From Geothrix fuzhouensis (lineage in GTDB: Bacteria > Acidobacteriota > Holophagae > Holophagales > Holophagaceae): a stretch of DNA of 64,000 nt. Below are positions 19,926 to 49,732 of this stretch, piece by piece; position 1 is the stretch's first letter, and each line of letters opens with the position of its first letter. The stretch covers positions 310,001-374,000 of the forward strand of contig NZ_JANHMQ010000002.1 of assembly GCF_024609325.1 (NCBI RefSeq), given 5' to 3'. Both the position numbers and the translations under genes were made by a program. The notes beneath the pieces are model-generated. The model was not told the origin of the DNA and made no database searches. It saw only the letters and a program-made list of their open reading frames with translations.

Positions 19926-20203
19926 TGATGTCCGCACTTTAAGCAGGTCAGAAGGACCTTTCGGCTTCCGTGGAACCCGCCCAGCAGGCCCAGGCCACCG
20001 GTGGCCACGCCAAGGGTCAAGCCTTTCACCCAGCCGTAGCCCTTTCGGTCAGAGGAGAACTGGGTCGACCAGCACTTGGGGCAGCAGACAGGCGCGTCAC
20101 TGCTGCTGGAGGCCTGTGCCTTCGCCTTCTGCTTGGATGCCCGGACGACGCTGTAAAGGGCGAGTGCCGCAACGCTGAAGAAGATCAGTTGTGTCGATTC
20201 CAT
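19904..20203 (-). CDS. membrane-anchored zinc-ribbon protein
   Basis: 99 residues. An N-terminal membrane segment (LIFFSVAALALYSVV) is followed by CCPKCWS and, 40 residues later, CLKCGHQWR, two CxxC knuckles of a zinc ribbon that flank a glycine-rich hydrophobic stretch. The ribosome-binding site is a run of eight G before the ATG at 20203. Function unknown. Confidence 0.7.
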   Translation of the reverse strand: MESTQLIFFSVAALALYSVVRASKQKAKAQASSSSDAPVCCPKCWSTQFSSDRKGYGWVKGLTLGVATGGLGLLGGFHGSRKVLLTCLKCGHQWRAGSI

Positions 20204-20231
20204 TCCCCCCCCTTGTGATTGGTGCCCCATC

Positions 20232-20720
20232 CTACCGCTTCGCCCAGCGACGCTGGGCTCCATTCACGCCCTTGACGTGCTCCATGAGGCCCTGGAGGGC
20301 TTCCATGGGCCAGGCCTCCAGGCGCTGAGGCGTGCCGTGGAGGTGGGGATGGTGAGTGCTGAGCCAGGCCACCACACGCTCCCGCACCCGCTGACGGCGG
20401 GCGGGCTCGGTGGCATCGAAGGCCCCCGCCGCCTCGGGCCGGTCCCACCCCGCCTCATAAGCCTCACGCAGGATGCGCCCGATGAGGCGGGTCTTGGGCT
20501 CGTCCTTGGGATCGGCGGGTCGCCGCACCTTCACGGCCTGCCCGCCGCGCAGGTGCTCCAGTGCCCGCAGCACCTGGCGGGCCCCGTCCTCGGACAAGTC
20601 CTTGCTGCTGCGCTTCCCCGCCACGTTCTCCAGGAAGTCCCGGTACACCTCATCCTCTGCCAGGCCGGGGATCTGCCCCCGCAGCGTGTGGATGATCTTG
20701 ATCTGGAGCGGCGTGCTCAT
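20232..20720 (-). CDS. GemA-like protein (DUF1018, Mu gp16)
   Basis: 162 residues, starting MSTPLQIKIIHTLRGQIPGL. The early IKIIHTLRGQI segment and the C-terminal LQGLMEHVKGV are typical of the Mu GemA family, which alters host gene expression and DNA supercoiling early in infection. In Mu it is a distal early gene. Here a cassette array separates it from the rest of the early operon. Confidence 0.82.
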   Translation of the reverse strand: MSTPLQIKIIHTLRGQIPGLAEDEVYRDFLENVAGKRSSKDLSEDGARQVLRALEHLRGGQAVKVRRPADPKDEPKTRLIGRILREAYEAGWDRPEAAGAFDATEPARRQRVRERVVAWLSTHHPHLHGTPQRLEAWPMEALQGLMEHVKGVNGAQRRWAKR

Positions 20721-20778
20721 GGTGTCCGTCCGGGAATATTTAGGTTGGGTTTACAGATCACCAAACAGATATGAAACG

Positions 20779-20850
20779 GCTTACCTAGCGCACGGACGAT
20801 TTAGGCGAACCAGCGCGGCGCAGCGCAGTTCGTCTAATACAAAGTTAGGC
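20779..20850 (+). repeat. attC P1 (end next to gemA)
   Basis: Right core GTTAGGC at 20844-20850. Arms TTAGGCGAAC and GTTCGTCTAA enclose a GC-rich loop. The left core (ACCTAGC) is degenerate. It belongs to a different attC family from the other sites. Confidence 0.7.
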
Positions 20851-21153
20851 CGCTCGGCAGGCGTCGATGACAACCCGTGCCACGCGCATGACGTAGGCCA
20901 TTTCCGCCTTCGTTGCCTTGATGTTCCAGGTGAGATTGCGGGCCACGTAATCGGCGTCACAACCGGAAACGAACTCGCGCACCGTCTTGCCCGACATTCC
21001 GCCCCAGTAGGTCGTCCAGGCGCGGTTGTAGCAGGTGACGATGAGGTAGCCCTGTCCGGGCGCTATGTCGTGGAAGATCACGCGCACCGGGTCAAGACGG
21101 TCGGCATCCGAAACGACGATCCCGTTCAGCTTTTCGATCAGTTCAAGTGCCAC
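20845..21153 (-). CDS. cassette protein, phage-associated unknown family
   Basis: 102 residues, GTG start with GGAG eight bases before it. The stop TAA is formed by the core GTTAGGC of P1. The segments YLIVTCYNRAWTTYWGGMSG and VREFVSGCDADYVARNL resemble a small protein family seen in prophages and mobile elements of Proteobacteria; its function is unknown to me. It is an intact gene inside cassette P1-P2. Confidence 0.75.
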   Translation of the reverse strand: MALELIEKLNGIVVSDADRLDPVRVIFHDIAPGQGYLIVTCYNRAWTTYWGGMSGKTVREFVSGCDADYVARNLTWNIKATKAEMAYVMRVARVVIDACRAA

Positions 21154-21184
21154 TTTTTCTCCTTCGATTTGTCCGTTGTTCGCG

Positions 21185-21250
21185 GCCTAACCAAGTCGCT
21201 CAGCGTCGGACCCCGGCTGCGCCGTGGCCGAGCTAGCTCCGAAGTTGGGC
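21185..21250 (+). repeat. attC P2
   Basis: 66 bp. Cores GCCTAAC and GTTGGGC; arms GCTCAGCGTCGGACC and GGCCGAGCTAGC. Short site without an ATG in its loop. Confidence 0.8.
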
Positions 21251-21251
21251 G

Positions 21252-21455
21252 CTATCGGAAGGCTGTGAACTCAAGGCATTCCTCGTTGTGTATGACCTTC
21301 ACCAGCTCCAGGTATGCATCCGGGTGGTTCTCCTTCAATTCGCGGAACCAATTCCGAGCCACGCGCTCTCCGTCTTGATTCCAAGATTCGACCACCTCAA
21401 ATCGGTTGGTCTTTACGGTTGAAACCCGCTGTCTGATTTCAAAGGTGGTTCCCAT
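21252..21455 (-). CDS. small cassette protein, unknown
   Basis: 67 residues, starting MGTTFEIRQRVSTVKTNRFE, with GGAG before the ATG. The stop TAG lies 3 nt inside the core of P2. The charged, Trp/Phe-containing sequence (RVARNWFRELKENHPDAYLE) looks like a folded small protein. No family recognised. Confidence 0.7.
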   Translation of the reverse strand: MGTTFEIRQRVSTVKTNRFEVVESWNQDGERVARNWFRELKENHPDAYLELVKVIHNEECLEFTAFR

Positions 21456-21468
21456 CGTTTGCTCCTAC

Positions 21469-21555
21469 GCCCAACCAGGCGCTCAACCTTCACTCGCTTC
21501 GCTCGTCGGACCCGTCAGGCTGCGCCTGCCGGCCCGGGTTAGCTTTCCGTTAGGA
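21469..21555 (+). repeat. attC P3
   Basis: Cores GCCCAAC and GTTAGGA; arms GCTCAACC and GGGTTAGC, with an inner hairpin (CACTCGCTTCGCTCG). Its right core supplies the stop codon of the next gene. Confidence 0.8.
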
Positions 21556-21936
21556 CTTCCGCTCCCTCGGCTGTTCGTCCAGATCGTCGTCCTTGGCCTT
21601 GTAGTAGCCGCCGACGACAATCTGCTCGTAGGTATAGCGGTCCACCCACCACGTAGCCCGCTCCCACTTCTTCCCGTTGAACTTCTTGATGTCCACGCTG
21701 TAGCTGTCGGGGTAGAAAAAGAACATCGGGACCATCGTGATAGTGGTAGTTTTCCCGCTGCTCACGGTCATGGGCATCAGGATCATCTGTGTGTGGGCCG
21801 GGTGAAATTCCTTGGTCGCCACCACGCCCTCTTTCAGCGCGGGCTCACAGGCCAGGGCCAGCATCAGGGCGCAGCATCCAAGCAACGTCCTAACCCAGCG
21901 CTCAACTCGGACCCCGCCTGCATTGCTCTCTGCCAT
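21550..21936 (-). CDS. cassette lipoprotein-like protein whose start lies in attC P4
   Basis: 128 residues from the ATG at 21936, with GGAGG five bases before it, both inside the loop of P4. The first 17 residues (MAESNAGGVRVERWVRT) are read from attC. They lead into a hydrophobic stretch ending in Cys (LLGCCALMLALAC), a lipoprotein-type signal. The mature part contains SSGKTTTITMVPMFFFYPDS and ATWWVDRYTYEQIVVGGYY. The stop TAA is the core of P3. An internal ATG at the LALAC segment would be the alternative start. Confidence 0.7.
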   Translation of the reverse strand: MAESNAGGVRVERWVRTLLGCCALMLALACEPALKEGVVATKEFHPAHTQMILMPMTVSSGKTTTITMVPMFFFYPDSYSVDIKKFNGKKWERATWWVDRYTYEQIVVGGYYKAKDDDLDEQPRERKS

Positions 21937-21984
21937 GTCATCCTCCAGGCCCACGGCGGGGCCGGTTAGCTTCATTCGTTAGGC
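21888..21984 (+). repeat. attC P4, carrying a start codon
   Basis: 97 bp. Cores TCCTAAC and GTTAGGC. Its right arm, GCCGGTTAGCTTCATTCG, equals that of the chromosomal array sites. The loop contains, on the minus strand, GGAGGATGACATGG: a ribosome-binding site and ATG. Confidence 0.88.
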
Positions 21985-22374
21985 CGGGCCTTGGCCGAAA
22001 TGCTCGAAGTAAAAGACGACGCGCTTGCATGTCCCTTCCACCTGCCCGAAGTCCTCAGCCAGGCGGAAACCTGCTGAGTCGCGCCGAACTCGATCTACCT
22101 GGGCTTCGATTTCCTTCCTGAACCCTTCGACCGAATGAACGGATTTCCAGAGGTTGCAGCGACGGCAGGATGGGAACTTATCCGTTTCCGCGTCCCGTTC
22201 CTTTGCCCCAAGCAAGCCCCGGAAGACGGGCTGAACATGATCGACATGGAACCCCTTCTTGGGGATCTCCTGGCCACAATAGGCGCACCGGCCCGCGAAC
22301 CGTGCCCACACGGCGGCCCGGTCTAACCGTGCGCTCGACTCGGACCCTGCCTCGGGTGCGTTCTGCTTCGTCAT
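21979..22374 (-). CDS. HNH endonuclease, started inside attC P5
   Basis: 131 residues. The first 17 (MTKQNAPEAGSESSARL) are encoded by the loop and left arm of P5, with AAAGGAA before the ATG. The rest is an HNH nuclease: CAYCGQEI, then HVDHVQPVFRG and PSCRRCNLWKS, with zinc cysteines and catalytic histidine present. The stop TAA is the core of P4. It could cut incoming DNA or serve phage packaging, but its cassette location suggests independent cargo. Confidence 0.85.
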   Translation of the reverse strand: MTKQNAPEAGSESSARLDRAAVWARFAGRCAYCGQEIPKKGFHVDHVQPVFRGLLGAKERDAETDKFPSCRRCNLWKSVHSVEGFRKEIEAQVDRVRRDSAGFRLAEDFGQVEGTCKRVVFYFEHFGQGPA

Positions 22375-22420
22375 GTCGGTTCCTTTCTCCGGCAGGGCCG
22401 GTCAGCTTGGGCTGTTGGGC
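22321..22420 (+). repeat. attC P5, carrying a start codon
   Basis: 100 bp. Cores GTCTAAC and GTTGGGC. The loop carries, on the minus strand, AAAGGAACCGACATGACGAA. Nearly the same loop occurs in P9, although the genes they start are unrelated. Confidence 0.85.
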
Positions 22421-22421
22421 G

Positions 22422-22598
22422 CTACTTGTCCCCTTCATCGGCCAAGTCGCTGCCCATCCAGGGGTCAGGGTCATCTTGCTTCTGCACTTGTCCCTGCTTG
22501 TTCCTGGGCCTGTAGACATCAGCGCCGGGGCAGGTGTTGCAGTCCTCGTGCCCGTGCCACTTGCTCTCTTTGTCGAAACATCGTCGGTCGCAACTCAT
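22422..22598 (-). CDS. small Cys-rich cassette protein
   Basis: 58 residues from the ATG at 22598 (AAAGGAAG before it). CDRRCF, then HEDCNTCPG suggest a small zinc-binding protein. The C-terminal half is acidic and disordered. The stop TAG lies just inside the core of P5. Function unknown. Confidence 0.6.
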   Translation of the reverse strand: MSCDRRCFDKESKWHGHEDCNTCPGADVYRPRNKQGQVQKQDDPDPWMGSDLADEGDK

Positions 22599-22619
22599 CG
22601 CTTCCTTTCCGGGCATCGC

Positions 22620-22694
22620 GCCCAACCATCTCGCTCAACCCCGCTTCGCTCGGACCCGCGCAAGCGCGGCCCGTGTTAGCTCGGGGCGTTAGGC
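22620..22694 (+). repeat. attC P6
   Basis: 75 bp. Cores GCCCAAC and GTTAGGC; arms GCTCAACCC and GTGTTAGC with a short GC-rich inner hairpin. No start codon in the loop. Confidence 0.8.
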
Positions 22695-22976
22695 GCCTTC
22701 CAGCGCATCGTCTGCGAGCTTGTAAAGGAAGGTGTCGGTCCCCCTTGCATACTCGCGGATCTGTCGAAGAGCCTTCCGATGGCGATCCCTTTCCCGCTCC
22801 TGTATCAGGTTCATCTGCGCACGGAATAGGCCCGACTCTTCGGCAGTGATCTCCACCCGCTCCCCGCGCATGATTGCCTCGGTTTTTTCGGGAGACAGCA
22901 GCCCTAGGAAGGGGAGATCCCGCCTAACCACGGCGCTCAACTCGGACCCCGCCTTCCTTGATCTCTGCCATGTCAT
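22689..22976 (-). CDS. cassette protein started inside attC P7
   Basis: 95 residues. The reading frame begins at an ATG in the P7 loop (MTWQRSRKAGSELSAVVRR is attC-encoded) and ends with TAA in the core of P6. The body, ITAEESGLFRAQMNLIQERE followed by RDRHRKALRQIREYARG, is helical and charged. A second ATG 5 nt downstream has better spacing from GGAGG but is out of frame and stops after 15 codons. A start further inside is possible. No family recognised. Confidence 0.6.
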   Translation of the reverse strand: MTWQRSRKAGSELSAVVRRDLPFLGLLSPEKTEAIMRGERVEITAEESGLFRAQMNLIQERERDRHRKALRQIREYARGTDTFLYKLADDALEGA

Positions 22977-23019
22977 CCTCCTGGCCCACGGCGGGGCCGG
23001 TTAGCTGCATTCGTTGGGC
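22922..23019 (+). repeat. attC P7, carrying start codons
   Basis: 98 bp. Cores GCCTAAC and GTTGGGC. The loop, as in P4, has GGAGGATGACATGG on the minus strand, so two ATG codons in different frames follow one ribosome-binding site. Confidence 0.85.
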
Positions 23020-23020
23020 G

Positions 23021-23224
23021 CTACTCCCCAAACCCAGGAAGCATCTTCTTCTTCTGCCCGATGGTGTAGACGATGGCCGCGGTCCAGATGATCACTTGAA
23101 GCGTCCAGAAGACACCCCATCCCCAGCTTGGGATCTTCAGTCGGTCGCACAGAAGCCACATCGCCACCGAGTGCCAGAGGGGCAGCCGATATGGTAGGCA
23201 CTTGTCATCGATAACTGTCGGCAT
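23021..23224 (-). CDS. small cassette membrane protein
   Basis: 67 residues from the ATG at 23224; the frame is open to 23263, inside P8. Two hydrophobic segments (LPLWHSVAMWLLC and WGVFWTLQVIIWTAAIVYTI) precede a basic tail (GQKKKM). The stop TAG lies just inside the core of P7. Function unknown. Confidence 0.65.
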   Translation of the reverse strand: MPTVIDDKCLPYRLPLWHSVAMWLLCDRLKIPSWGWGVFWTLQVIIWTAAIVYTIGQKKKMLPGFGE

Positions 23225-23245
23225 TTTCACTTTCTCTCTCCACGC

Positions 23246-23343
23246 GCTCAACCAAGCGCTCAACTCGGACCCGATAGCCGTTGTGGTCCGTGTAGTTTTG
23301 AAAGTCCGGCTCGGCTATCGGGCCGGTTAGCTGGGCGTTAGGC
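23246..23343 (+). repeat. attC P8
   Basis: 98 bp. The left core is altered to GCTCAAC; right core GTTAGGC. Arms GCTCAACTCGGACCCGATAG and GGGCCGGTTAGC. The inner stem (CCGATAGCCG with CGGCTATCGG) is perfect. Confidence 0.8.
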
Positions 23344-23601
23344 CGCATCGTCCTTGACGATTTGGGGTGAAAGCATTAACCTGAATTGCCCGGAGGAGCA
23401 GTACAGTGGCTCCACTGAGCGCGAACCCGGAGGCATCCGATCGTGCGAAGTGGGAACGCTGGCCCCGAGACGTTCACTACGGCCCAGCTGGTGGTTCAGC
23501 ACTGGAGGGTTCGAGATACGGTGGACTAGATGCCCTGAACAGGTATCCCGGGCAACCAATCCGAAAGCCACCAACACGATTTGGTGGCTTTTTTTGGGCC
23601 T
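23344..23601 (+). ncRNA. cassette without a convincing gene; possible plus-strand RNA
   Basis: This cassette has no reading frame that looks like a protein. It ends with a strong plus-strand terminator at 23570-23595: AAAGCCACC, loop, GGTGGC, then seven T. A plus-strand transcript would follow the attC orientation, unlike the other genes here. The minus-strand frame that starts in P9 continues through it, but its composition after the first 30 residues is not protein-like. Confidence 0.4.
23570..23596 (+). terminator. rho-independent terminator inside the array
   Basis: Stem AAGCCACC with GGTGGCTT around an eleven-base loop, followed by T7. It is directed against phage early transcription. 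Confidence 0.75.
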
Positions 23602-23701
23602 GCCTAACCGTGCGCTCGACTCGGACCCTGCCTCAGGTGCGTTCTGCTTCGTCATGTCGGTTCCTTTCTCCGGCAGGGCCGGTCAGCTTGGGGCGTTAGG
23701 C
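23602..23701 (+). repeat. attC P9, carrying a start codon
   Basis: 100 bp. Cores GCCTAAC and GTTAGGC. The loop is almost identical to that of P5, including the ribosome-binding site and the codons for MTKQNAPEAGSESSARL on the minus strand. Confidence 0.88.
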
Positions 23702-23971
23702 CAGCTTCTTGATGGTCACTTCCCAGTCGCCCAACTTCTCAGCGCCGTGGGTAAAACCCTCGATGGTGGTCGTGCTGGTGGTGGCATTCATGTCGGCGGC
23801 GTGGCCAATCAGAATCAGCGCGGCACTCATCGTCCACACGCGCCCCTGCTCGTTCCCGATCTTCACGATGTCGAGGGCCACCTTCTTGGTGAGCTTTCCA
23901 ACCGCCTCATCGGGCAGTTCCAGCCAGGTCGCGGCGGCTTTTTCTTCTTCGGTCAAAATGAGTTCGGCCAT
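23696..23971 (-). CDS. cassette protein, unknown
   Basis: 91 residues, starting MAELILTEEEKAAATWLELP. A strong AAGGAGAAGG precedes the ATG at 23971, and the stop TAA is the core of P9. An acidic helical N-terminal half is followed by a Thr-rich strand (NATTSTTTIEGFTHG). It looks like an intact small protein of unknown function. Confidence 0.75.
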   Translation of the reverse strand: MAELILTEEEKAAATWLELPDEAVGKLTKKVALDIVKIGNEQGRVWTMSAALILIGHAADMNATTSTTTIEGFTHGAEKLGDWEVTIKKLA

Positions 23972-23992
23972 TCCTTCTCCTTGTTTTGTGGG

Positions 23993-24051
23993 GCCTAACC
24001 GGCTCGCTCAACCCGGACGCCTGACGGCGCCGGTTAGCTCGAAAGTTAGGC
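23993..24051 (+). repeat. attC P10
   Basis: 59 bp, the most compact site. Cores GCCTAAC and GTTAGGC; arms GCTCAACCCGGACGCC and GGCGCCGGTTAGC. Confidence 0.88.
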
Positions 24052-24207
24052 GTTTACAGGCGCTCGATAGCCCTTCTTGGCGACCCATCGCTGGAACAGG
24101 TCCGGGTGACGATAGGCTGGAATCCCGCGTTTGGTGAAGTGTGCATAGACGGCCTGCCTTATACGCCTCACCAATTCAAAATCGGTATAGCTCCACGCTT
24201 CAGGCAT
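24046..24207 (-). CDS. small cassette protein, unknown
   Basis: 53 residues from the ATG at 24207; a GTG directly before it is possible. The stop TAA is the core of P10. The sequence has a basic helix (DFELVRRIRQAVYAHFTKRG) and a Trp/Arg-rich end. It could be the end of a once longer gene, because the next site (P11) is incomplete. Confidence 0.55.
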   Translation of the reverse strand: MPEAWSYTDFELVRRIRQAVYAHFTKRGIPAYRHPDLFQRWVAKKGYRAPVNA

Positions 24208-24233
24208 CACTTACACCGTCGCTGCCAATCAGC

Positions 24234-24267
24234 TCTCTCAACCGGATTGCTCAACCCTGCTGCCTGA
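24234..24267 (+). repeat. attC P11 remnant, junction of array and phage gene
   Basis: TCTCAAC, spacer, GCTCAACC and CTGCCTGACGGG align with the left half of P10; the right arm and core are missing. The last codons and the stop of the phage gene at 24251-24475 lie inside this half site. Confidence 0.6.
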
Positions 24268-24475
24268 CGGGTCCATGAAGCTGAGCCAGGACTGCCCCCA
24301 CCCAAGCCTCGACCTCAGCCAGCGGACGGTAGATGACCTTCAACTCCCGGGGCTTGCGGTCGAGGCGCTGGAGGCTGATGACGGGCCGGCCCTGGTTGTC
24401 GCAGCCGCCCACGGCGTGGACCTTGAAGCGGCGGCCCTCGGGGCTGACGAGGGAGGTTCCGACCTTCAGGCTCAT
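24251..24475 (-). CDS. early phage protein, small beta-rich, end altered by the array
   Basis: 74 residues, starting MSLKVGTSLVSPEGRRFKVH and overlapping the upstream gene by 4 nt. The sequence looks like a small SH3-like or KOW-like fold (SPEGRRFKVHAVGGC, then PRELKVIYRPLAEVEAWVGA). The last eight residues and the stop come from the attC remnant, so the native C-terminus may have been longer. Confidence 0.65.
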   Translation of the reverse strand: MSLKVGTSLVSPEGRRFKVHAVGGCDNQGRPVISLQRLDRKPRELKVIYRPLAEVEAWVGAVLAQLHGPVRQQG

Positions 24476-24639
24476 GGGTTCACCATCCAGGTGTAGATGG
24501 CATTGGCACCCAGGGCCACGCCCGCAAGCAGGGCCATGCCGAGGAACACCTTGGGCGCCCAGTGGAGCAGGGCTACGATGGCGCCCTGCACGGCCGCGCT
24601 GAGGGCGATAGCAAGCAGGATCCTGGTGCGACGGCTCAT
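24472..24639 (-). CDS. small phage membrane protein
   Basis: 55 residues. Two hydrophobic segments (ILLAIALSAAVQGAIVALL and VFLGMALLAGVALGANAI) are separated by HWAPK. It overlaps both neighbours by 4 nt (ATGA), so it is part of the early operon. Function unknown. Confidence 0.7.
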   Translation of the reverse strand: MSRRTRILLAIALSAAVQGAIVALLHWAPKVFLGMALLAGVALGANAIYTWMVNP

Positions 24640-24884
24640 CAGCGGCCCCTTCGGGCCAGGGCAGCGGCCTTGCGGCGCTCGTGGCGGTTGACGGCTGGGG
24701 GTGCAGGCGTGTCCTTGGGCAGCTGCTGGGCCTTCTGGGCCAGGCGGGTCTTGGTGGTGTGGTCCATGGCTTCCAGCACGGCCTGTAGAAGGCCGACGCG
24801 GCGGATGGACCGGCCGTTCGGGCCGGGCGTGATGGCGACCAGGGCCGTGGGGGCGACGGGATCAATGGCGAGACGTTCCTGCAT
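24639..24884 (-). CDS. early phage protein, unknown
   Basis: 81 residues, starting MQERLAIDPVAPTALVAITP. It ends in a basic tail (NRHERRKAAALARRGR) typical of small nucleic-acid-binding phage proteins. ATGA overlap with the next gene. Confidence 0.65.
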   Translation of the reverse strand: MQERLAIDPVAPTALVAITPGPNGRSIRRVGLLQAVLEAMDHTTKTRLAQKAQQLPKDTPAPPAVNRHERRKAAALARRGR

Positions 24885-24895
24885 GGGAGGTCCTT

Positions 24896-25468
24896 TCAGA
24901 TGGCTGCGGTGGCGATGTCGGAAGTCATGCGGTGGAAGAGGCGGGCGGTGGCCAGGGCATCGCCCAGGGCGGTGTGGCGCTGGTCGTCGGCTAGGTCGAT
25001 GCCGTAGTGCTGGAGGAGATCGGTCAGGCCGCCCTTGCCCTCGGGCAGCAGGCCCCCGACCCGCAGAGCCGTGGCGAGGGTCATGGTGTCCACCAGGCGG
25101 TGGCTGAAGCGGCCCACCAGGTGGGGGCCGTGCTGGCGCAGGTAGGGCATCAGGAAGGCGATGTCAAAGCCCACGTTGTGGCCGCCCAGCATGACCTTCT
25201 CGCCCTGGGGCACGTTGGCGTCCAGGAAGGCCTCGATGCGGGCCACGGCGGTGGTGGGCTCCAGGGCCTTGGCGTGGTGCTGCACCAGGTCGATGCGGTT
25301 CACGGCCATGGCATCGGCCTCCACCACATAGGTGGGATGCCGGAAGGCGATCTCATCCACGATGGGTTCCCAGCCGTGCCGGGGCTTGGCGACCAGGGCC
25401 AGGGTGAGCAGGCTGTGGCGGGAGGGATCCAGGCCGCCCGTCTCGGTGTCGATCCAGACCAGATTCAA
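24896..25468 (-). CDS. DnaQ/RNase T-like 3'-5' exonuclease
   Basis: 190 residues with a TTG start that overlaps the upstream stop (TTGA). The DEDDh motifs are in place: WIDTETGG (Asp7, Glu9), GHNVGFDIAFL, and HTALGDALATARL with the His and last Asp. It trims single-stranded 3' ends of DNA or RNA and probably serves phage replication or repair. Length fits the single-domain family. Confidence 0.88.
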   Translation of the reverse strand: MNLVWIDTETGGLDPSRHSLLTLALVAKPRHGWEPIVDEIAFRHPTYVVEADAMAVNRIDLVQHHAKALEPTTAVARIEAFLDANVPQGEKVMLGGHNVGFDIAFLMPYLRQHGPHLVGRFSHRLVDTMTLATALRVGGLLPEGKGGLTDLLQHYGIDLADDQRHTALGDALATARLFHRMTSDIATAAI

Positions 25469-25578
25469 CGCAGCCCCCCGAACATGTGGGGCCGGAGGAT
25501 CCGGTACCAGAGGTCGATTACGTCGATCCAGAGGATGCGGAGGAAGCCGGTGTGCTCGCGGCGGTCGATGGCGCTCAT
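25465..25578 (-). CDS. very small early phage protein
   Basis: 37 residues (begins MSAIDRREHTGFLRI), with 4-nt overlaps at both ends (ATGA and TTGA), which argue that it is translated. The centre is hydrophobic and aromatic (LWIDVIDLWYRIL). Confidence 0.55.
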   Translation of the reverse strand: MSAIDRREHTGFLRILWIDVIDLWYRILRPHMFGGLR

Positions 25579-26312
25579 GCGACCGCCTGCGCGAGCCGGA
25601 CGCCCAACGTCAGCACCTCGGCCAAGAGGCCGATTTCGCGTTCTGTGGCCTTGGCCTCGTCGGGGGTGAGCCCCTCACAGCTGGGCAGCAGGTCCAACGC
25701 CTGGGAGCGCAAGGCGCGGAAGCGGGCGGCCACTTCCGGCGAAGTCACGGCCAGGCGGTGGCTGAGGTCCTCTCTCATGGCCTCGGCTTCTGCCGGGGAG
25801 CCAGGGACATGGATCCCCGCATCCTTCAGGGCCAGGCGCATCGGCTCGGACGAGGCCTTGGGTTGCACGCTGGCCTGGGCCTGGGCTCGGTTCTTCCGCT
25901 CAGCCTCGACCGGCACGGGGAGGCCGTTGACCTTGCAGTAGGTGCGGATGTCCGAGGTCAACTTGTACACCTCGATCTGGCGGTCTTCGGCCTGTAGCCT
26001 CGCCAGCCGGGCCAACTTGGTGGCGAGGCAGGCCTGGGGAGTCTTCTTCGGCATGGGGGTCTCCGGGACCGCAGGGGCGGTCATGGTGCCCTTCACGGGA
26101 TGCGTGGGCCGATGCATCGTTGTGGCCGCGATCTGGCGAAGGGTGAGGGATTGAGGCGGCGGGGGCGGTTCGGGCGTGGCACCCACCTCGGCCAGGTCAT
26201 TCACCAGGCTCTGGCGCAGGGTGAGGTAGAGGTCATGGCCAATGCCGGGGCCGGGATCGCGCAGCTCAGCCAGTTCCTGGCGCAGTTCACGGATGCGGGC
26301 TTCGCTAGACAT
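25575..26312 (-). CDS. early phage protein, unknown, helical
   Basis: 245 residues, starting MSSEARIRELRQELAELRDP, with a heptad-like N-terminal helix and a Pro-rich linker (TPEPPPPPQS). The C-terminal helical domain contains RLAVTSPEVAARFRALRSQA. It is in the place where Mu-like phages have several unassigned early genes. No known domain recognised. Confidence 0.65.
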   Translation of the reverse strand: MSSEARIRELRQELAELRDPGPGIGHDLYLTLRQSLVNDLAEVGATPEPPPPPQSLTLRQIAATTMHRPTHPVKGTMTAPAVPETPMPKKTPQACLATKLARLARLQAEDRQIEVYKLTSDIRTYCKVNGLPVPVEAERKNRAQAQASVQPKASSEPMRLALKDAGIHVPGSPAEAEAMREDLSHRLAVTSPEVAARFRALRSQALDLLPSCEGLTPDEAKATEREIGLLAEVLTLGVRLAQAVA

Positions 26313-26715
26313 GGCTGCCCCACCAACCCGAGGGCAGCAAACGGCGCAGGCGCGGCCCCAGGCCAGCAGCCTTGGGATCGTTCGTCTGGACGTGCTTCTG
26401 GAACCCTTCAAGGCCATCCAGGAGATCAAGCACGGCGTTGTAGGCTTCGCAGGCGACGATAGCCCAGCCTTTGAAGTGGCTCGGCAGATCGGCGGCCAGC
26501 AGCTTGCGCAGGCTCGGCGCGGCCTCCTGCATGAGCTGGAAGGTGGCGCGAGTGTCTTCCCGGTGGAGGGGTTCCACACGGAGACGAGTGGCGGCCTCAG
26601 AGAGCTTGGCCCCGGCGAAGCGGCAATCCGCGTCCTGGATGTGGCTGTCAGCCAGGCCCACCAGAGATTGGGAGGCGTAATCGAGTAGTTCGATGGCGGC
26701 GTGTTGGAGGCTCAT
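26305..26715 (-). CDS. early phage protein, unknown
   Basis: 136 residues from the ATG at 26715, overlapping the stop of the frameshifted gene before it. Helical (HAAIELLDYASQSLVGLADS), with several conserved-looking Trp near the end. Unknown. Confidence 0.65.
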   Translation of the reverse strand: MSLQHAAIELLDYASQSLVGLADSHIQDADCRFAGAKLSEAATRLRVEPLHREDTRATFQLMQEAAPSLRKLLAADLPSHFKGWAIVACEAYNAVLDLLDGLEGFQKHVQTNDPKAAGLGPRLRRLLPSGWWGSHV

Positions 26716-26943
26716 CGCGTCACCAGGAACTCGGCCTGGGCCTGGTCGTCCACCCAGCCCCGGGCCTCGGAAGGGCCGTTGAAAGGGCCCGCAAACCGCT
26801 CCACACGGTGGTAAGTGGCAAAGAATTTGCCCCCCCGTTTTCCAATACGAGCCGACGCACCGGCCGCCCTTGATGTGGCAGCTCTCTCCCAGTGCCGTGG
26901 CCCTCCAGCGGGTGACCTCATCGGGGCCCCAGGCCTTAGCCAT
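26712..26943 (-). pseudogene. small early phage gene with a frameshift in a G7 run
   Basis: From the ATG at 26943 the frame reads MAKAWGPDEVTRWRATALGE, then CHIKGGRCVGSYWKTGG, up to a run of seven G (plus-strand C7 at 26830-26836). After it the sensible sequence continues in another frame: KFFATYHRVERFAGPF to DDQAQAEFLVTR, ending in the ATGA overlap at 26712. One G fewer would restore a 76-residue protein. This may be a real mutation, phase variation or a base-calling error. Confidence 0.65.
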
Positions 26944-27112
26944 GGCGCACCTCCGAGCCTTCCTCGGCCGTATCCAGCAGCAGGGGCGTTCCGGCGGTGG
27001 CGGCTTTGCGCTGGCGCTGGGTCTCCTTGGCCGACCGTTCCTGCGCCCGCTCCTGGCGCTTGCGGTCGCGGATGGCGTCTTCGATAGTGAGTTGTGTGGC
27101 GAACTGCGGCAT
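26936..27112 (-). CDS. small basic early phage protein
   Basis: 58 residues: MPQFATQLTIEDAIRDRKRQ, then a charged helix and LLLDTAEEG. It overlaps the start of the next gene by 8 nt. Possibly nucleic-acid binding. No family recognised. Confidence 0.55.
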   Translation of the reverse strand: MPQFATQLTIEDAIRDRKRQERAQERSAKETQRQRKAATAGTPLLLDTAEEGSEVRHG

Positions 27113-27126
27113 GAACCCTCCCGGTT

Positions 27127-27801
27127 TCAGCCCTTGTAGGCGATGACTTTCCGAAGCCGGCCCAGGGCCTGGCTTTCGAGTTGGCGGACGCGCTCGCGGC
27201 TCAGGCCCAGGCTGAGCGCGATGACGGCCAGGTTTTCGGCGGGGTGGCCACAGAGGCCGAAGCGCCGGATGAGGATGTGCCGTTCTCTGGGCTTGAGCAG
27301 GCGGAGCAGGCGACGGGCTTCGAGGGCGGACACCTGGGCTTCGGTGATGTCCGCGCCCTGGTCACCTGCCATGCAATCGCCGATGGTGGTGCCATCCGCG
27401 AGAAAAGGCAGATCCAGACTGCACACAGGCGGCAGCGATCCCGTCTGGCGCATGGTGGCGGCGGTCTCGCGGGGGATGTGGACGACCACCTGCTTGCGCA
27501 GGGTGTCCAGGATGCGGGAACGGATCCACCAGACGGCGTAAGTGATGAAGCGCAGGCCCTTGGCGGGATCGAACCGTTGCGCGGCCACCAATGCCCCGTG
27601 GTGCCCCTCCTGGACCAGGTCTTCCACGGAGAGGCCGGACTTGGCCCCCGTGGCGGCGAATTTCCGCGCTTCACGCCAGATGAACGCATCCAACGTGAGG
27701 ATCGCCGCGGGGTCCAAGCCCGCCTCGGGCGTCCAGATGTAATCCGTGCCCTTGATGTGGACCAGGACGGGCAGCAGTTCAGCGGTGGCGGGCTCGGCCA
27801 T
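27127..27801 (-). CDS. phage sigma-70-type sigma factor
   Basis: 224 residues. Region 2 is clear: LSVEDLVQEGHHGALVAAQR, FDPAKGLRFITYAVWWIRSR (core binding and -10 recognition). Region 4 follows (LKPRERHILIRRFGL and LSLGLSRERVRQLESQALGR) with its HTH for the -35 element. It lacks region 1.1. It would direct host RNA polymerase to phage middle or late promoters; Mu uses the activators Mor and C instead. It starts 4 nt after the DUF4406 gene, within the early operon. Confidence 0.9.
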   Translation of the reverse strand: MAEPATAELLPVLVHIKGTDYIWTPEAGLDPAAILTLDAFIWREARKFAATGAKSGLSVEDLVQEGHHGALVAAQRFDPAKGLRFITYAVWWIRSRILDTLRKQVVVHIPRETAATMRQTGSLPPVCSLDLPFLADGTTIGDCMAGDQGADITEAQVSALEARRLLRLLKPRERHILIRRFGLCGHPAENLAVIALSLGLSRERVRQLESQALGRLRKVIAYKG

Positions 27802-27804
27802 GGC

Positions 27805-28230
27805 TTACCCCCGGGGCTGGAAGGGGAGAAGCTGCCGCTTCAGGCCGGACGCCAGCAGCTCGTCCACGGATTCGTAGACCCGGATGCCCCAGCCCAGGGC
27901 GAACGTCCGTTCCCGCACCGCCCCAGGGCTCTTCTCCCAGCCGGGCATCATGAAGATGCCGTCGCAGCGGCCCAGCAACATGAAGTCCACGGCCATGATG
28001 TCCTCATAGCCGAGGCGGCCGATGTCCTGGATGTTGGTGTGGGGGCAGATGGGGGCGTAGCCCAGCTCGGCCAGGTAGGTGGTCCAGGCCCTCGCGGCCC
28101 GGACATTGCCCTCCACCCCCGCCGGGGTGGGGGCGGAGATGGCACCGGAAACATAGAGAACGGCCATGGTCCGGCAATCGGCGGGGATAGGGATAACGAT
28201 GGAGGTGGGCGACGGCGCGGGCTTGGGCAT
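27805..28230 (-). CDS. DUF4406-type protein, nucleoside deoxyribosyltransferase-like
   Basis: 141 residues, starting MPKPAPSPTSIVIPIPADCR. The Rossmann-like pattern LYVSGAISAPTP, then PICPHTNIQDIGRLGYEDIM and DGIFMMPGWEKSPGAVRE is that of the DUF4406/2'-deoxyribosyltransferase-like fold common in phages. A role in nucleotide metabolism is possible. ATGA overlap with the DUF3164 gene. Confidence 0.8.
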   Translation of the reverse strand: MPKPAPSPTSIVIPIPADCRTMAVLYVSGAISAPTPAGVEGNVRAARAWTTYLAELGYAPICPHTNIQDIGRLGYEDIMAVDFMLLGRCDGIFMMPGWEKSPGAVRERTFALGWGIRVYESVDELLASGLKRQLLPFQPRG

Positions 28231-28844
28231 CACAGCTCCGCCACATCGAGAGGCACCGGGGTGTACTGGTCGGAGTGGCCAATCCGCTTGTAGAAGCGGA
28301 GGTAGGCCTTGGAGCCGGTGACGGTGATGGAATCCCCGATGGCCTCCATGGCCCGCTTCCAGTTCCGGTCGTCCACATCCAGGCGGCGCAGGCTGAGGAT
28401 GCGGGTGGGGCTGAGCTTGCCCTCCTTGTCCACCTCGAAGGCGTAGTTCACCAGGGCCATGAGCTTGGCGTCGGCACCCTCGCCCCACTTGCTGATGCAC
28501 TTGTCGATGAGCACCTTGGCGGCCTGGAGCCGCTCGTCGAAGGCGATGCGATCCTGGATCTGGACCTGCACCTTGTAGCGCCCGTCGAAGCTCATGAGGG
28601 TGACGTTGCCCTTCACGCCGCCCACCTTGGCTTTGAACTTGGCCATGGATTCGGCGATGAAGGCGTCGATGGTGGCCATGGCCTCGACCTTGAAGACGGC
28701 CAGGCCGGTGGAGTGCTGCTCGGCGGCCTTGACGAGGGTGGTGACCAGCTCGTCGCGGGCCAGGTCGATTTCCTTGATGGTCTCGACCGGCACCAGCCGG
28801 CCCTTGGCATCTTCCCTGAAACCATCGGGGATTTTGGTGGACAT
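28230..28844 (-). CDS. DUF3164 protein of Mu-like phages
   Basis: 204 residues from the ATG at 28844. The segments DAKGRLVPVETIKEIDLARD, SFDGRYKVQVQIQDRIAFDE and RRLDVDDRNWKRAMEAIGDS are typical of DUF3164, an early-operon family of transposable phages found near the A and B genes. Function is not established. Confidence 0.85.
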   Translation of the reverse strand: MSTKIPDGFREDAKGRLVPVETIKEIDLARDELVTTLVKAAEQHSTGLAVFKVEAMATIDAFIAESMAKFKAKVGGVKGNVTLMSFDGRYKVQVQIQDRIAFDERLQAAKVLIDKCISKWGEGADAKLMALVNYAFEVDKEGKLSPTRILSLRRLDVDDRNWKRAMEAIGDSITVTGSKAYLRFYKRIGHSDQYTPVPLDVAEL

Positions 28845-28864
28845 GCGTGCTCCTTGAGGGGTGG

Positions 28865-28996
28865 TTAAAGGCGGCAGACGGGGTAGCGGTGGTGCCAGCG
28901 GCGCCAGGCGTCCCGAAGGTGGAGGGCGCCCAGGATGGGCAGCCAGAAGGGCGAGATCGCCCAGGCCAGCGCCTTGGAGGCGGTGGCGGTCTTCAT
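28865..28996 (-). CDS. very small early phage protein
   Basis: 43 residues: a hydrophobic stretch (ALAWAISPFWLPILGALHL), then RDAWRRWHHRYPVCRL. The ATG overlaps the upstream stop (ATGA at 28993-28996), supporting translation. Possibly membrane associated. Confidence 0.55.
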   Translation of the reverse strand: MKTATASKALAWAISPFWLPILGALHLRDAWRRWHHRYPVCRL

Positions 28997-29277
28997 GCGA
29001 CCCACTGGCCCGCGGCGCGCATCTTGGTGATGCGCTGCTGCAGCTCGTAGTGCAGAACCGGCAGCGAGGGAGGGGGGAGGCGGTCCTGGTCACGAATGAG
29101 GTTCACCAGGGCCATCTCGATGGAGGTGAGGGGCAGCGACCGTAGGATCGCTTCCTTCACTGCGTCACAAGCCATCTCGACGCTGGTCTGATCGGTGATC
29201 AGGGTGATGGCGTGCTGCGCGGTGTAGGCGGCGGCGGCGAAGGCGGAGAGGTTTGGCGAGGGCTCGAAGGGGGTCAT
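28993..29277 (-). CDS. early phage protein, unknown
   Basis: 94 residues from the ATG at 29277, starting MTPFEPSPNLSAFAAAAYTA. Helical, with an end motif LHYELQQRITKMRAAGQWVA. ATGA overlaps on both sides. Unknown. Confidence 0.65.
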   Translation of the reverse strand: MTPFEPSPNLSAFAAAAYTAQHAITLITDQTSVEMACDAVKEAILRSLPLTSIEMALVNLIRDQDRLPPPSLPVLHYELQQRITKMRAAGQWVA

Positions 29278-29585
29278 GGCTTGGCTCCTTTGAAGTGGGG
29301 GCAGCTCTGGCAGGCAGACCAATGGCGGAGGGTCTTGGGGTTGGAGGTGGGGACGGGGCTATGGCTGATGCGGCGGCACTGCTCGGCGGGAATCGGCGCA
29401 CCCAGGAAAGGGCAGGCGACTTCGCCATAGAGCGACAGCACCCGGGCCTCGATGCGCTCGGTGCCGCCCGGATACTTGTCCCTGCGGACGAGGCTGAGGG
29501 TGGTGGCGGAGTAGCCCAGTTCCCGGGCGACGGCGGCCTGGCCCTTGTCCTTGATCTTGGATTCGAGGAGGTCACGCCAGGTCAT
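29274..29585 (-). CDS. HTH protein of the early operon
   Basis: 103 residues from the ATG at 29585. The N-terminal GQAAVARELGYSATTLSLVR is a lambda-repressor-type HTH, followed by a region with paired Cys (VACPF, C-R-R, SACQSCPHF) that may bind zinc. It could regulate phage genes. A longer frame upstream is a shadow of the preceding gene. Confidence 0.7.
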   Translation of the reverse strand: MTWRDLLESKIKDKGQAAVARELGYSATTLSLVRRDKYPGGTERIEARVLSLYGEVACPFLGAPIPAEQCRRISHSPVPTSNPKTLRHWSACQSCPHFKGAKP

Positions 29586-30129
29586 AGCTGACTCCCTGAT
29601 TGGGGTCGAAGACCCGCTTCTGGCGCTTGTTCCACTGCGGGGCCTGGGGGCCGGTATCGCGCAGCAGCAGCCACCGCTGGGGGCCGCTGCGGGTGTAGGC
29701 GGGATCGAGAATCCCGACGTGGGCCAGGGCATTCAGGTAGCGGCGGGCATCTTCCCGAGCGTTGCCTTCGGTGCCTTTGGCGGCCAGCACCAGCAGCTCG
29801 TCCACCGAGGCCACCCGCTTGAGGCGCAGGGCCCGCCACAGGCGGGTTCGGAGCGTAGATGGGGCGAAGGGCGAGGGTCCATGGGGGCCCTTGGGGCCGC
29901 TGGTGATGACCTTACCGGAGGCCAGGTGCTTAAGGCCCTCGGGGGTGATGGCGTAGACGCCCTTCCAGCAATGGCGGACGAGGCCGCGTTCCATCAGGGC
30001 GTAGAGCGTGAAGCGGACCTGCGTGGGGGTCAGTTCCAGCCGGGCGGCCAGATCGCGCAGGGACACACGGTCGCCCAGGCGCTGGGGATCGGGCACCAGG
30101 GCTTGGAGGACGTGGTCGGCCACGCTCAC
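29572..30129 (-). CDS. winged-helix early phage protein
   Basis: 185 residues. LAARLELTPTQVRFTLYALM followed by ERGLVRHCWKGVYAITPEGL is a winged-helix DNA-binding pattern; a second such pattern lies near residues 105-150. It directly follows the B gene with a 4-nt overlap. Regulatory or replication role possible. Confidence 0.7.
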   Translation of the reverse strand: MSVADHVLQALVPDPQRLGDRVSLRDLAARLELTPTQVRFTLYALMERGLVRHCWKGVYAITPEGLKHLASGKVITSGPKGPHGPSPFAPSTLRTRLWRALRLKRVASVDELLVLAAKGTEGNAREDARRYLNALAHVGILDPAYTRSGPQRWLLLRDTGPQAPQWNKRQKRVFDPNQGVSYDLA

Positions 30130-30893
30130 TGCGGGTCCCCTTCTCGGCGGGCCAGGGGTTTCAGGACCTGGGGCTTCCGGGCCTGCCAGTCGTGGACCAG
30201 TTCCACGTCCTTGACCTCGGCCAGGCCGACGGTCTTGACCTTGCGGAGCCGGGCCACCCGCTCGCAGGCGGCCAGGCCGTTGAGCACCAGGCGCATCCGG
30301 CCCTCGGAGCGGACGTGGATCAGCTCGGCCACGTCATCCGTGATGGCGACGCCCTGCTCCAGCAGCATGGCGGCGGTGGCCCGCACATCCTCCAGGGTGG
30401 CGGGCTGGAAGGTGACGATGGTGGCGATGCGGCTCTGCACCTGGGGGTGCCGGGCGATCTTGTTTCGCACCTCGGCCATGCCCACCAGCACGGTGGGCAG
30501 GCGCAGCAGGTCGCTGAAGTCGCGGATGGCCTCCAGCACGCGGGTATCGGCCAGGGCGTGCTCGACCTCGTCCACCACCAGCACGTAGGGCTTGCGGGCC
30601 AGGGCGGCCAGGGCCTGCTTGAACATGTCCTCCGTCAGGCGGGTGGGCGCTTCGCCCAGCTCGGCCAGAAGGTCGTTCAGGAACCAGTGGCGGGTCCAGC
30701 CAGACTTGGCCCGCAGGTAGATGGCGTAGGGCTGCTGGGTTACGTACCAGCCAAGGGTCTCGGTCTTGCCCAAGCCGGGCTGGCCGGTCACCAGCATCAG
30801 GCAGGCCTCGACGGCCCCTCGCTCCTGGACGATGCTGACGCCGGCCAGGAGCCGACTGACGTTGGAAACGGTATGGCAGAATTGCTGGTGCAA
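30126..30893 (-). CDS. MuB-like AAA+ target-selection ATPase
   Basis: 255 residues. Walker A GQPGLGKTE near residues 37-45, Walker B VLVVDEVEHAL near 107, and a sensor-like VLVGMAEVRNKIARH. MuB forms ATP-dependent filaments on target DNA, activates the transposase and gives target immunity. The gene lies directly after the transposase gene, as in Mu. Length is near the usual 300. Confidence 0.9.
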   Translation of the reverse strand: MHQQFCHTVSNVSRLLAGVSIVQERGAVEACLMLVTGQPGLGKTETLGWYVTQQPYAIYLRAKSGWTRHWFLNDLLAELGEAPTRLTEDMFKQALAALARKPYVLVVDEVEHALADTRVLEAIRDFSDLLRLPTVLVGMAEVRNKIARHPQVQSRIATIVTFQPATLEDVRATAAMLLEQGVAITDDVAELIHVRSEGRMRLVLNGLAACERVARLRKVKTVGLAEVKDVELVHDWQARKPQVLKPLARREGDPQ

Positions 30894-30929
30894 AGGATCC
30901 TCCTCCCGAAGGGATGGGTTGGGGTGGGG

Positions 30930-33221: not shown

Positions 33222-33225
33222 GGGT

Positions 33226-33558
33226 TCAGGCGGCCGGCTCGGACTGGCGGCCCCAGATCCGATCAGACAGGAGGCCCAGGGCCGCGGCGATGATGTCTTC
33301 GACCGTGGCGTCCTTGCATTCCCGATTGATGACCTGGTGGAAGTAGGGGTCCGTGTAGCCGTGGGACTCGGCCAGCACTTTCACGTTCACGCCCTTGAGC
33401 TTCAGGAGGGCGCGCTTAGCCTCGGGCTTCAGGGATCCATCTGGATTGATCCCGTGGCTGATCATCTGCTGCACATCGGCAGCCGTAGCAAGGATCGACT
33501 GGACACTTGGGGGCAGGCCGTAGGCTGCCCGCTTGCGCAGGGGCTTTTCGAGTGGCAT
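33226..33558 (-). CDS. Ner-like DNA-binding protein
   Basis: 110 residues. VKVLAESHGYTDPYFHQVIN is an HTH followed by a helix; the end RIWGRQSEPAA resembles Mu Ner, whose gene lies in this place before A. Ner turns down early transcription. It is the first gene after the divergent operator region. Confidence 0.75.
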   Translation of the reverse strand: MPLEKPLRKRAAYGLPPSVQSILATAADVQQMISHGINPDGSLKPEAKRALLKLKGVNVKVLAESHGYTDPYFHQVINRECKDATVEDIIAAALGLLSDRIWGRQSEPAA

Positions 33559-33560
33559 CT

Positions 33561-33629
33561 TTGACTCCGGTTCCCTTAGTCAACTAAGGGTGACTACCAA
33601 GAGAATAGTCCGACGCATCAGACCGTCAA
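33561..33629. promoter_or_regulatory. divergent early/repressor promoter region with operator
   Basis: On the minus strand TTGACG (33624-33629), a 16-bp spacer and TATTCT (33602-33607) form a good early promoter. Downstream lies an 18-bp palindrome, CCCTTAGT-CA-ACTAAGGG (33573-33590). On the plus strand TTGACT (33561-33566) could be the -35 of the repressor gene, with the palindrome between it and its start. Repressor or Ner binding here would control both directions. Confidence 0.7.
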
Positions 33630-33647
33630 GGGTTGGGTCTTGAATTT

Positions 33648-34406
33648 ATGACTTTATTTGCAGCGCCAGACACCCCAGGGTTCCGCCTGCGCATGGCGAG
33701 GAAGGCCCTATCGAAGTCCCAGGAGGAATTCGGAACCCCTCTGGGCTATGGGAAAGCGCCTGTGTCCACCTGGGAGACGGGCCGTGTTGAGATCACGATC
33801 CTCATGGCCCAGGCGATTGAGTTCGTCTGGGGTATCCGCTTGCGGTGGCTCCTTTACGGAGAGGGCGAGCCTTGGGCCGACAAGGCTACCCAGTTGGAGC
33901 TGCAATCGCTCCCCACCGGGGAGGTTCTCGTGCGGCCCGAGATTGACGGCACCGCAACCTGTGGACCGGGCGGCGAGATCCATCGCCCCGGGCCTTTCGC
34001 ACCAACCCACCACCTGGACCGCACCCTAGCCGAGAAGCTCCTCAAGGATTCGGGTGGAGGCCGTGAGGAGGACCTGTTCTTCCTGCGCTGCGAAGGGGTG
34101 TCCATGGAGCCGACGATCCGCGACAAGGAGATCGTCCTGGTCAACACGGCCCTGGAGGGCCGGCTGCACCCGCGCAACAACGCCATCTATCTGGTACGCC
34201 GGTCCCCCAGCGGCAACGATGCCCGGGTGAAGCGCGTGCGCCTAGACCAGGAGCGCCGCCAGCTGGTGCTTTCGTCCGACAACCGCGCCTACACGCCGGC
34301 CATGATCGACCTCGACGGCATTCCCCTCCACCAGGTCGTCCTCGGCCGCGTCGTCTGGGTGGGCCGCGACCTCATCGACGGCGACCCGCCGGCTGAGGAC
34401 TGGTGA
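33648..34406 (+). CDS. phage repressor, HTH plus S24 peptidase domain
   Basis: 252 residues from the ATG at 33648; a TTG at 33633 in frame is the alternative. The N-terminal HTH (SKSQEEFGTPLGYGKAPVST, then WETGRVEI) resembles XRE proteins. The C-terminal LexA/CI-type domain has the catalytic Ser in RCEGVSMEPTIRDKEIVLV and a Lys in DARVKRVRL. It keeps the prophage silent and would be inactivated by RecA-stimulated self-cleavage. This differs from Mu c, which lacks the peptidase domain. Confidence 0.88.
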   Translation: MTLFAAPDTPGFRLRMARKALSKSQEEFGTPLGYGKAPVSTWETGRVEITILMAQAIEFVWGIRLRWLLYGEGEPWADKATQLELQSLPTGEVLVRPEIDGTATCGPGGEIHRPGPFAPTHHLDRTLAEKLLKDSGGGREEDLFFLRCEGVSMEPTIRDKEIVLVNTALEGRLHPRNNAIYLVRRSPSGNDARVKRVRLDQERRQLVLSSDNRAYTPAMIDLDGIPLHQVVLGRVVWVGRDLIDGDPPAEDW

Positions 34407-36970: not shown

Positions 36971-37031
36971 ACATGAAATCAGATTGGAGGAATCCACCCT
37001 CATCCCTGTCGTCACCGCTATCCTTGAGAAG

Positions 37032-37140
37032 TCCGAGGAGCGCTGCAGGACCCCACAGATTGGCTGTGCGGGATCTCAGGCTCGGACGCTCTCGATCAGG
37101 AACGGCGCTCACCTCACCCCTGTCCGGGGTCGATGAGGTG
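37032..37140 (+). promoter_or_regulatory. SAH riboswitch
   Basis: The conserved core is present in order: CCGAGGAGCGCTGC, then CAGGCTCGG pairing with the first strand, then AACGGCGCTCAC, which forms the pseudoknot-like pairing with GAGCGC. It binds S-adenosylhomocysteine and turns on the gene that removes it. A hairpin, CACCCCTGTCCGGGGTCG, follows and may be the expression platform. The ahcY start is at 37182. Confidence 0.93.
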
Positions 37141-49209: not shown

Positions 49210-49333
49210 GCCTAACAAACGAAGCAAACTGGCCCCATCTGCACCGTTGCGCGGGGTGGAGCCAACGTAGCGGGAAGCTGAGAGAGGGCAGAAGGCAATG
49301 CAGGCGGGGTCCGAGTTGAGCTGAGGGTTAGGC
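49210..49333 (-). repeat. attC C1
   Basis: Cores GGCCTAAC and GTTAGGC. The most divergent complete site of the array: its right half (AAACGAAGCAAACTGGCCCC on the plus strand) has changes in the arm, as expected for an old distal site. Confidence 0.85.
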
Positions 49334-49354
49334 TGCAGGTTAAGGAATTGCAGG

Positions 49355-49717: not shown

Positions 49718-49732
49718 CTGGGCTCCAGGGTA

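Follow-up and report, generated by a model that had tools for sequence, protein, structure and literature searches.

Introduction

Gene cassettes with attC recombination sites are known from phage genomes. According to Qi et al. 2023 (PMC9892861), they mostly occur there without an integrase of the phage's own, five of the six phage attC tested were recombined by IntI1, and the cassettes of TJE1 and PH101 are unidirectional, as is typical of bacterial arrays, with divergent attC in P12002L. Here we describe an attC-bearing array in a Mu-like prophage of Geothrix fuzhouensis, located within a 64,000-nucleotide stretch of contig NZ_JANHMQ010000002.1 (hereafter the window; G000:C2:310001-374000) that also holds part of the chromosomal integron of the host. 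The array resembles the phage integrons, or clusters of attC sites lacking integron-integrases (CALINs), reported in that paper in being an attC-bearing phage array of a mostly integrase-less kind. Its genes run antisense to their attC and it begins at an attI of host type. Probably, these are mirror-polarity cassettes that the host integrase IntI moves in trans and that a Mu-like phage expresses from its early operon.

Several described systems share single traits with this locus. In the review PMC8876359, the attI1 recombination site of class 1 integrons is reported to contain ORF-11, a separate short open reading frame (ORF) on the sense strand, whose Shine-Dalgarno (SD) sequence and start codon aid translation of the first cassette, and canonical attC hairpins in mRNA are reported to hinder ribosomes. 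In the phage mirror cassettes, by contrast, the signal lies on the bottom strand of the attC that belongs to the cassette and often continues in frame into the gene. The 'reverse' integrons of spirochaetes, as presented in PMC9668308, share an unusual orientation with the phage arrays, but it is the integrase gene that is reversed there. The sedentary chromosomal integron of the host genus has the same L'' motif, attI type and attI-to-attC geometry as the phage array, but differs from it in having intI, genes sense to attC, attC of about 124 nt and start signals in only 5 of 147 sites. Genes and attC are still in agreement in the spirochaete integrons as well. The text of PMC9892861 contains no antisense rule and no attC start codon (the terms 'antisense' and 'start codon' do not occur in it), and literature searches of limited reach, mostly by title and abstract, gave no description of a reversed polarity rule, of starts in attC loops or of a phage cassette pool with its own attI and the opposite polarity.

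Cassette genes are antisense to attC in phage arrays

In the prophage array, the called genes (nine of nine) lie on the minus strand, as an initial annotation made from the sequence had claimed, and the attC point in the plus direction, which their extrahelical bases confirm; this holds for seven of seven automatically found phage sites, with two more (21469-21555 and 22620-22694) assigned by eye or by motif. The same annotation held that genes and attC agree in the chromosomal array, which is borne out by the host cassettes of the window (eight sense, one antisense and 12 unscored, with 21 of 22 attC minus and one ambiguous). As host attC and genes are both minus and that array runs away from intI, one motif gives the polarity in host and phage alike. 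The pattern of bulged bases had been named beforehand as the test of orientation, and in folded bottom strands these bases lie on the L'' arm, as in host attC folded alongside; one of six window sites (22321-22420) has a different minimum-energy DNA fold. The phage sites have the R''/L''/L'/R' architecture with L''-arm bulges that characterises the attC of gene cassettes, while the usual, though not strictly defining, trait of a gene pointing in the same direction as its attC is absent from the phage arrays.

This polarity extends to other phage arrays. With a codon-usage score made from long ORFs and run on each interval between neighbouring attC, 26 cassettes were called antisense and none sense in ten phage arrays (the window, L006, L007, L048, L053, L058, L096, L098, L100 and L101; 10 of 36 cassettes unscored). 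The ten host arrays gave 51 sense and seven antisense calls, with 78 of their 136 cassettes unscored, as many AT-rich host cassettes receive no score under the codon model. All polarity counts take related cassettes as separate, and several contigs are fragments. Two held-out arrays retrieved with an alignment of three cassette proteins, L138, from the opposite end of the contig that holds L007, and L139, from a contig not used before, gave seven antisense, no sense and two unscored among nine cassettes. A longest-ORF rule yielded 24 antisense, five sense and 12 ties in phage arrays against five antisense, 117 sense, eight ties and eight without a call in host arrays (Fisher p = 2.5e-18, with related cassettes treated as independent). 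The codon-scored calls are preferred because the longest-ORF rule is poor in GC-rich phage DNA, where the ties and sense calls arose.

The proposal that the cassette genes are co-directional with phage transcription is also supported, as the flanking genes point the same way. Scored genes are present on the side from which transcription would enter in 11 arrays; in each of these most of the genes there are co-directional, and in nine exclusively so; in L096 the entry-side genes are co-directional by 4 to 1 when counted by gene, but slightly against when counted by bases. Mirror polarity as a universal phage rule was rejected, since one attC of TJE1 (about 1475-1530 of HQ225832), where the automatic finder reported no site, is by eye sense to its gene, unlike those of the prophage array.

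The array begins at a host-type attI

The leftmost site, ending at 20850, had been counted as an attC in the initial annotation but is an attI. A matrix built from 20 host attI read upstream of intI in congeners, with zero phage sites included, scores 30.0 at 20830-20850, against a maximum of 6.6 elsewhere in 34.5 kb of phage sequence. Host attI end, for example, in TCGTCCAATTCAAAGTTAGGC and have a TAGGCGAAC motif some 30 nt upstream, which the phage attI shares. The top matrix match falls at the array boundary in eight of 16 array contigs (the window, L006, L007, L010, L095, L096, L100 and L103), while the array-free relatives L042, L106 and L107 have no match above 7.6. A divergent relative of attI was recognised by eye in L048, L058 and L094; none was identified in L008, L053, L098, L099 and L101, in part because that end lies outside the fetched DNA.

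The presence of attI makes the locus an integron platform without intI and not merely a cluster of attC. It has the attI expected at the start of an integron array but no integrase gene beside the array, and with two or more attC and no nearby integrase it also falls within the CALIN definition, although attI is not required in a CALIN. Sequences resembling attI also occur in or beside host cassette arrays (L110 at 3277 and L120 at position 565; G002, G006), and are perhaps attI-derived cassettes.

Stop and start codons at the recombination sites

The initial annotation placed the stops of at least five cassette genes at the TAA of the neighbouring core. Six of the nine cassette genes of the window end at a TAA inside the core, and the other three at a TAG 2 nt past it. 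Among the length-called antisense genes, 21 of 24 stop at one of these two positions, and the remaining three at +8, +9 and -117. The crossover falls after the G of GTTRRRY, and the stop therefore belongs to the cassette itself. As read from the DNA, a mirror cassette is thus a predicted complete translation unit, with its own start and stop. In L006, the right core of the attC at 5024-5091 is altered (GTGATAGGC) and the neighbouring gene reads through into the next cassette, a natural fusion across attC.

Start signals were found in the apical loop of 19 of 55 phage attC, on the gene strand, defined as an SD of at least four bases and an ATG or GTG that opens a frame of 25 codons or more leading out through R''. 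Over 200 rounds of dinucleotide-preserving shuffling, the phage loops averaged 3.7 signals and reached 9 at most, and in host attC such signals (5 of 147) were below the shuffled mean of 10.3 (phage versus host, Fisher p = 1.9e-8). No start signals occur on the top strand of 57 phage or 152 host attC. The wider phage set of 57 (20 with signals) includes the mis-bounded L006 5024 site, the attI and one out-of-range L094 site, and the host set of 147 is that of 152 without the phage-type sites in L097, L102 and L113; the attC at 21469, which is not among the signal carriers, was taken in the counts to end at 21548, 7 nt short of 21555. In the held-out arrays, 4 of 11 attC carry a start signal.

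The 19 signal-bearing sites represent nine distinct loop families, and their translated L''-R'' stretch reads GSE(L/S)S.. or GGVRVER.... The MTKQNAPEAGSESSA- loop type and its close variants are in frame with the HNH protein in the window, with a zinc-finger-like protein in L007 and with other proteins in L048, L053 and L098, and three homologous cassette proteins are alike from the R'' end onward but have different leaders. Among 16 RNA hairpins tested, SD and ATG were mostly less paired than the average attC base, with exceptions in L007 12261-12387 (ATG, 0.02) and in L053 (SD, 0.28). An SD and start codon in the loop imply that these attC would start translation and encode a leader, suggesting that attC, a known ribosome obstacle, can be a start site. 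At 22922-23019 the start is uncertain, because the in-frame ATG directly abuts the SD; this copy also has an R'' spacer of a different length than the homologues have, so that its leader frame is shifted, and its translation may be poor. A phage-type mirror cassette at L097 3455-3736, in G018, has the 5' leader CGAACAACGGACAAATCGAAGGAGAA in common with window gene 1, though the genes differ.

The loop signals could alternatively be by-products of leaders captured by a mobile cassette set, with translation independent of the loop. The 36 of 55 phage attC without an internal start fit this explanation, as do genes with their own ribosome-binding site (RBS) outside attC (for example 20845-21153 and 23696-23971), yet it is unlikely given that the signal recurs in nine distinct families at 19 sites, versus the shuffled mean of 3.7, and that one loop type is in frame with different genes in the window, L007, L048 and L053.

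A shared phage cassette pool and probable exchange with the host

Cassette proteins are common to different phages at 90-97% identity and in different orders. For example, window genes 2, 5 and 8 are paired with cassettes of L094 (97%), L058 (90%) and L053 (92%), respectively, and further pairs link L048 with L058 (94%) and L101 with L103 (91%). More than one type of phage carries these arrays: the window prophage is Mu-like, L098 has a MuB-like protein, portal proteins lie near L096 and L100, and a DnaB-like helicase lies near the L058 array. The phage status of L101 and L099 derives from shared cassettes and attC types only, the one flanking protein tested for each having no PHROG match.

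Mirror cassettes are also present in host arrays. In G019, a phage-type cassette comes first after the host attI; its attC loop contains an SD and an ATG, and its gene runs back towards intI to a TAA stop in the attI core. The host-type array of G006:C10 contains two mirror cassettes, one from a family present in phage L007, and the L007 array in turn contains one host-type attC of 124 nt. The mirror cassette of L097 abuts an attI-like sequence but was not counted as a capture at attI, because comparable sequences occur within a host array (L110 3277) and, in L120, downstream of the attI.

Among 47 genomes of the genus, 29 have intI above the cut-off, including that of the window, where TIGR02249 matches once, outside the prophage. 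A search of plasmids with one attC as query gave no DNA match.

Proposed mechanism and competing explanations

Under mirror-polarity capture by a host integrase, an integrase-less platform with a host-type attI would sit the 'wrong' way round in the phage early operon. Its recombination polarity is ordinary, with attI on the left and cassettes and attC pointing right, but transcription would enter at the distal right-hand end and leave through attI. The chromosomal IntI of the host most likely acts in trans on the phage attI and attC, to which the phage-type cassette at the host attI in G019 and the cassettes common to different phages point indirectly. Insertion at attI would place a new cassette at the 3' end of the early operon. 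As no gene would be read unless it was antisense to its attC, selection through expression would build a phage pool of mirror cassettes. Start signals would be supplied at attC, within the bottom-strand loop in about a third of sites; a ribosome that terminates at the core would arrive at the foot of the following attC hairpin, the loop of which would display the next SD. Translational coupling across attC is plausible, and the mirror hairpin would then serve as a start site instead of hindering the ribosome. The interpretation offered in the initial annotation is supported, but was incomplete in lacking the attI, the start signals within attC and the common cassette pool.

Several observations weigh against this explanation. 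Seven host cassettes score antisense, although two of these are phage-type cassettes of L102, and the longest-ORF rule called five phage cassettes sense. Half of the array contigs (8 of 16) have no matrix attI at the boundary, an internal start is absent from around two thirds of the phage attC, so that the loop start is common but not universal, and at 22922-23019 the start codon has no spacing from its SD. In addition, the absence of intI above the TIGR02249 cut-off from the phage records (0 of 7), which speaks for the explanation, is weak evidence, as the records may be fragments.

Antisense polarity could instead have been favoured for recombination, by making the recombinogenic attC bottom strand the one that is not the template in transcription, or by placing it on a particular strand in replication. 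The attC bottom strand is indeed the coding strand in the phage arrays, but start and stop codons tuned to attC are not predicted by this explanation, which is quite improbable by itself, though an added effect is still conceivable. That the array is a defunct fragment of a host integron which was brought into the prophage, is inverted by chance and has inert cassettes would agree with the absence of an above-threshold integrase from the phage records (0 of 7) and with the truncated attC remnant at the distal end, but is very improbable because inversion of a block preserves gene and attC agreement whereas here they disagree within each scored cassette (on which ground an inverted host-array fragment was rejected), several cassette genes match phage families, cassettes are common between phages at 90-97% in other orders, and the coding signal and the frames through attC are maintained.

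It is reasonably likely that several phage lineages of one bacterial genus run a parasitic integron, with an attI of their own, a borrowed host integrase, a separate cassette pool of opposite polarity and attC that double as ribosome landing sites. If so, the reversed polarity would make the phage and host pools mutually silent, as each other's cassettes face the wrong way, although recombination between them could still occur. The usual rule that an attC follows its gene in the same direction is violated systematically and heritably in these arrays, in more than one kind of phage, suggesting that cassette polarity is set by the source of transcription and not by the recombination system. Phages would gain a borrowed gene-shuffling machine, and the genus would offer a testable case of one integrase serving two partly isolated cassette pools.

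The carrier prophage and features of the window

The prophage lies on the minus strand of the window and has the MuA-like transposase, MuB-like protein and GemA that characterise Mu-like transposable prophages, together with terminase, portal and head proteins (PHROG matches). Its array, 3.4 kb of small genes alternating with attC sites, lies between a DnaQ-like gene and gemA (Table 1), with the transposition, sigma-factor and DnaQ-like genes on one side and gemA on the other, both flanks co-directional with the cassette genes. The candidate early promoter is the sole sigma-70-like pair in 20200-34000 (minus strand, 33629-33602), where 1.6 are expected by chance. Two relatives without an array, L042 and L106, are about 80% identical to the window prophage over long stretches and, at the array position, have one ordinary early gene adjoining gemA (L042 7498-8004, L106 8573-9079), which is bounded on its other side by the equivalent of the window gene at 24639-24884 and represents the empty site. 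No DNA match to the window phage was found among deposited phages. The host array continues beyond the window to intI at G000:C2:387622-388566 (TIGR02249, 461.9 bits).

Table 1 Features of the prophage array, its carrier and the host integron, in window coordinates.
Feature	Position	Strand	Remarks
Phage attI	20795-20850	+	TTTAGGCGAAC motif, then TTCGTCTAATACAAAGTTAGGC; array boundary, cassettes to the right
Cassette gene 1, phrog_3451	20845-21153	-	Own SD, GTG start; TAA stop in attI core
attC	21185-21250	+	Automatic finder, extrahelical bases, fold
Cassette gene 2	21252-21455	-	97% amino acid identity to L094 prophage cassette; TAG stop 2 nt past core
attC	21469-21555	+	Assigned by eye, not by finder; BLAST match to L048 and L058 attC
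Cassette gene 3, lipoprotein-like, phrog_4392	21550-21936	-	SD and ATG within its attC; TAA stop in core
attC	21888-21984	+	Antisense SD and ATG in apical loop (GGAGGATGACATG)
Cassette gene 4, HNH endonuclease	21979-22374	-	attC-encoded leader MTKQNAPEAGSESSARL; TAA stop in core
attC	22321-22420	+	Antisense SD and ATG in loop (GGAGAAAGGAACCGACATG); DNA minimum-energy fold differs from attC fold
Cassette gene 5	22422-22625	-	90% amino acid identity to L058 cassette; TAG stop 2 nt past core
attC	22620-22694	+	Found by motif; 98% match to L007 attC
Cassette gene 6	22689-22976	-	Homologues in L006, L096, L138 and L139; TAA stop in core
attC	22922-23019	+	In-frame ATG directly abuts SD
Cassette gene 7, membrane-protein-like	23021-23224	-	TAG stop 2 nt past core
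attC	23246-23343	+	Automatic finder, extrahelical bases
Cassette without scored coding ORF	23344-23601		Hairpin and T run, + strand, near 23570-23598
attC	23602-23701	+	Antisense SD and ATG; near-duplicate of 22321-22420
Cassette gene 8	23696-23971	-	92% amino acid identity to L053 cassette; own RBS outside attC; TAA stop in core
attC	23993-24051	+	97% match within host array G006:C10
Cassette gene 9	24046-24207	-	TAA stop in core
Truncated attC remnant	24217-24270	+	Distal array end; repeat families D2, D5 and D6
gemA	20232-20720	-	PF06252, E 9.4e-10; directly downstream of array
MuB-like gene, phrog_296	30126-30893	-	Upstream of array, same direction as cassette genes
Transposase gene, phrog_310	30930-33221	-	Upstream of array, same direction as cassette genes
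Candidate early promoter	33602-33629	-	Sigma-70-like hexamer pair, region divergent from repressor-like gene
Host chromosomal integron array, part in window	49210-63102	mainly -	22 attC: 21 minus, 1 ambiguous; genes mainly minus

Pfam was uninformative for most cassette proteins. No ORF of the cassette at 23344-23601 scores as coding by codon usage; its hairpin and T run (CCACCAACACGATTTGGTGGCTTTTTTT) lie on the plus strand, opposite to phage transcription, and the cassette possibly encodes a small RNA. A known RNA family in the array was rejected, as Rfam gave no match at E 0.5. Outside the prophage, an S-adenosylhomocysteine (SAH) riboswitch (RF01057, 52 bits) is present on the plus strand of the window at 37029-37117.

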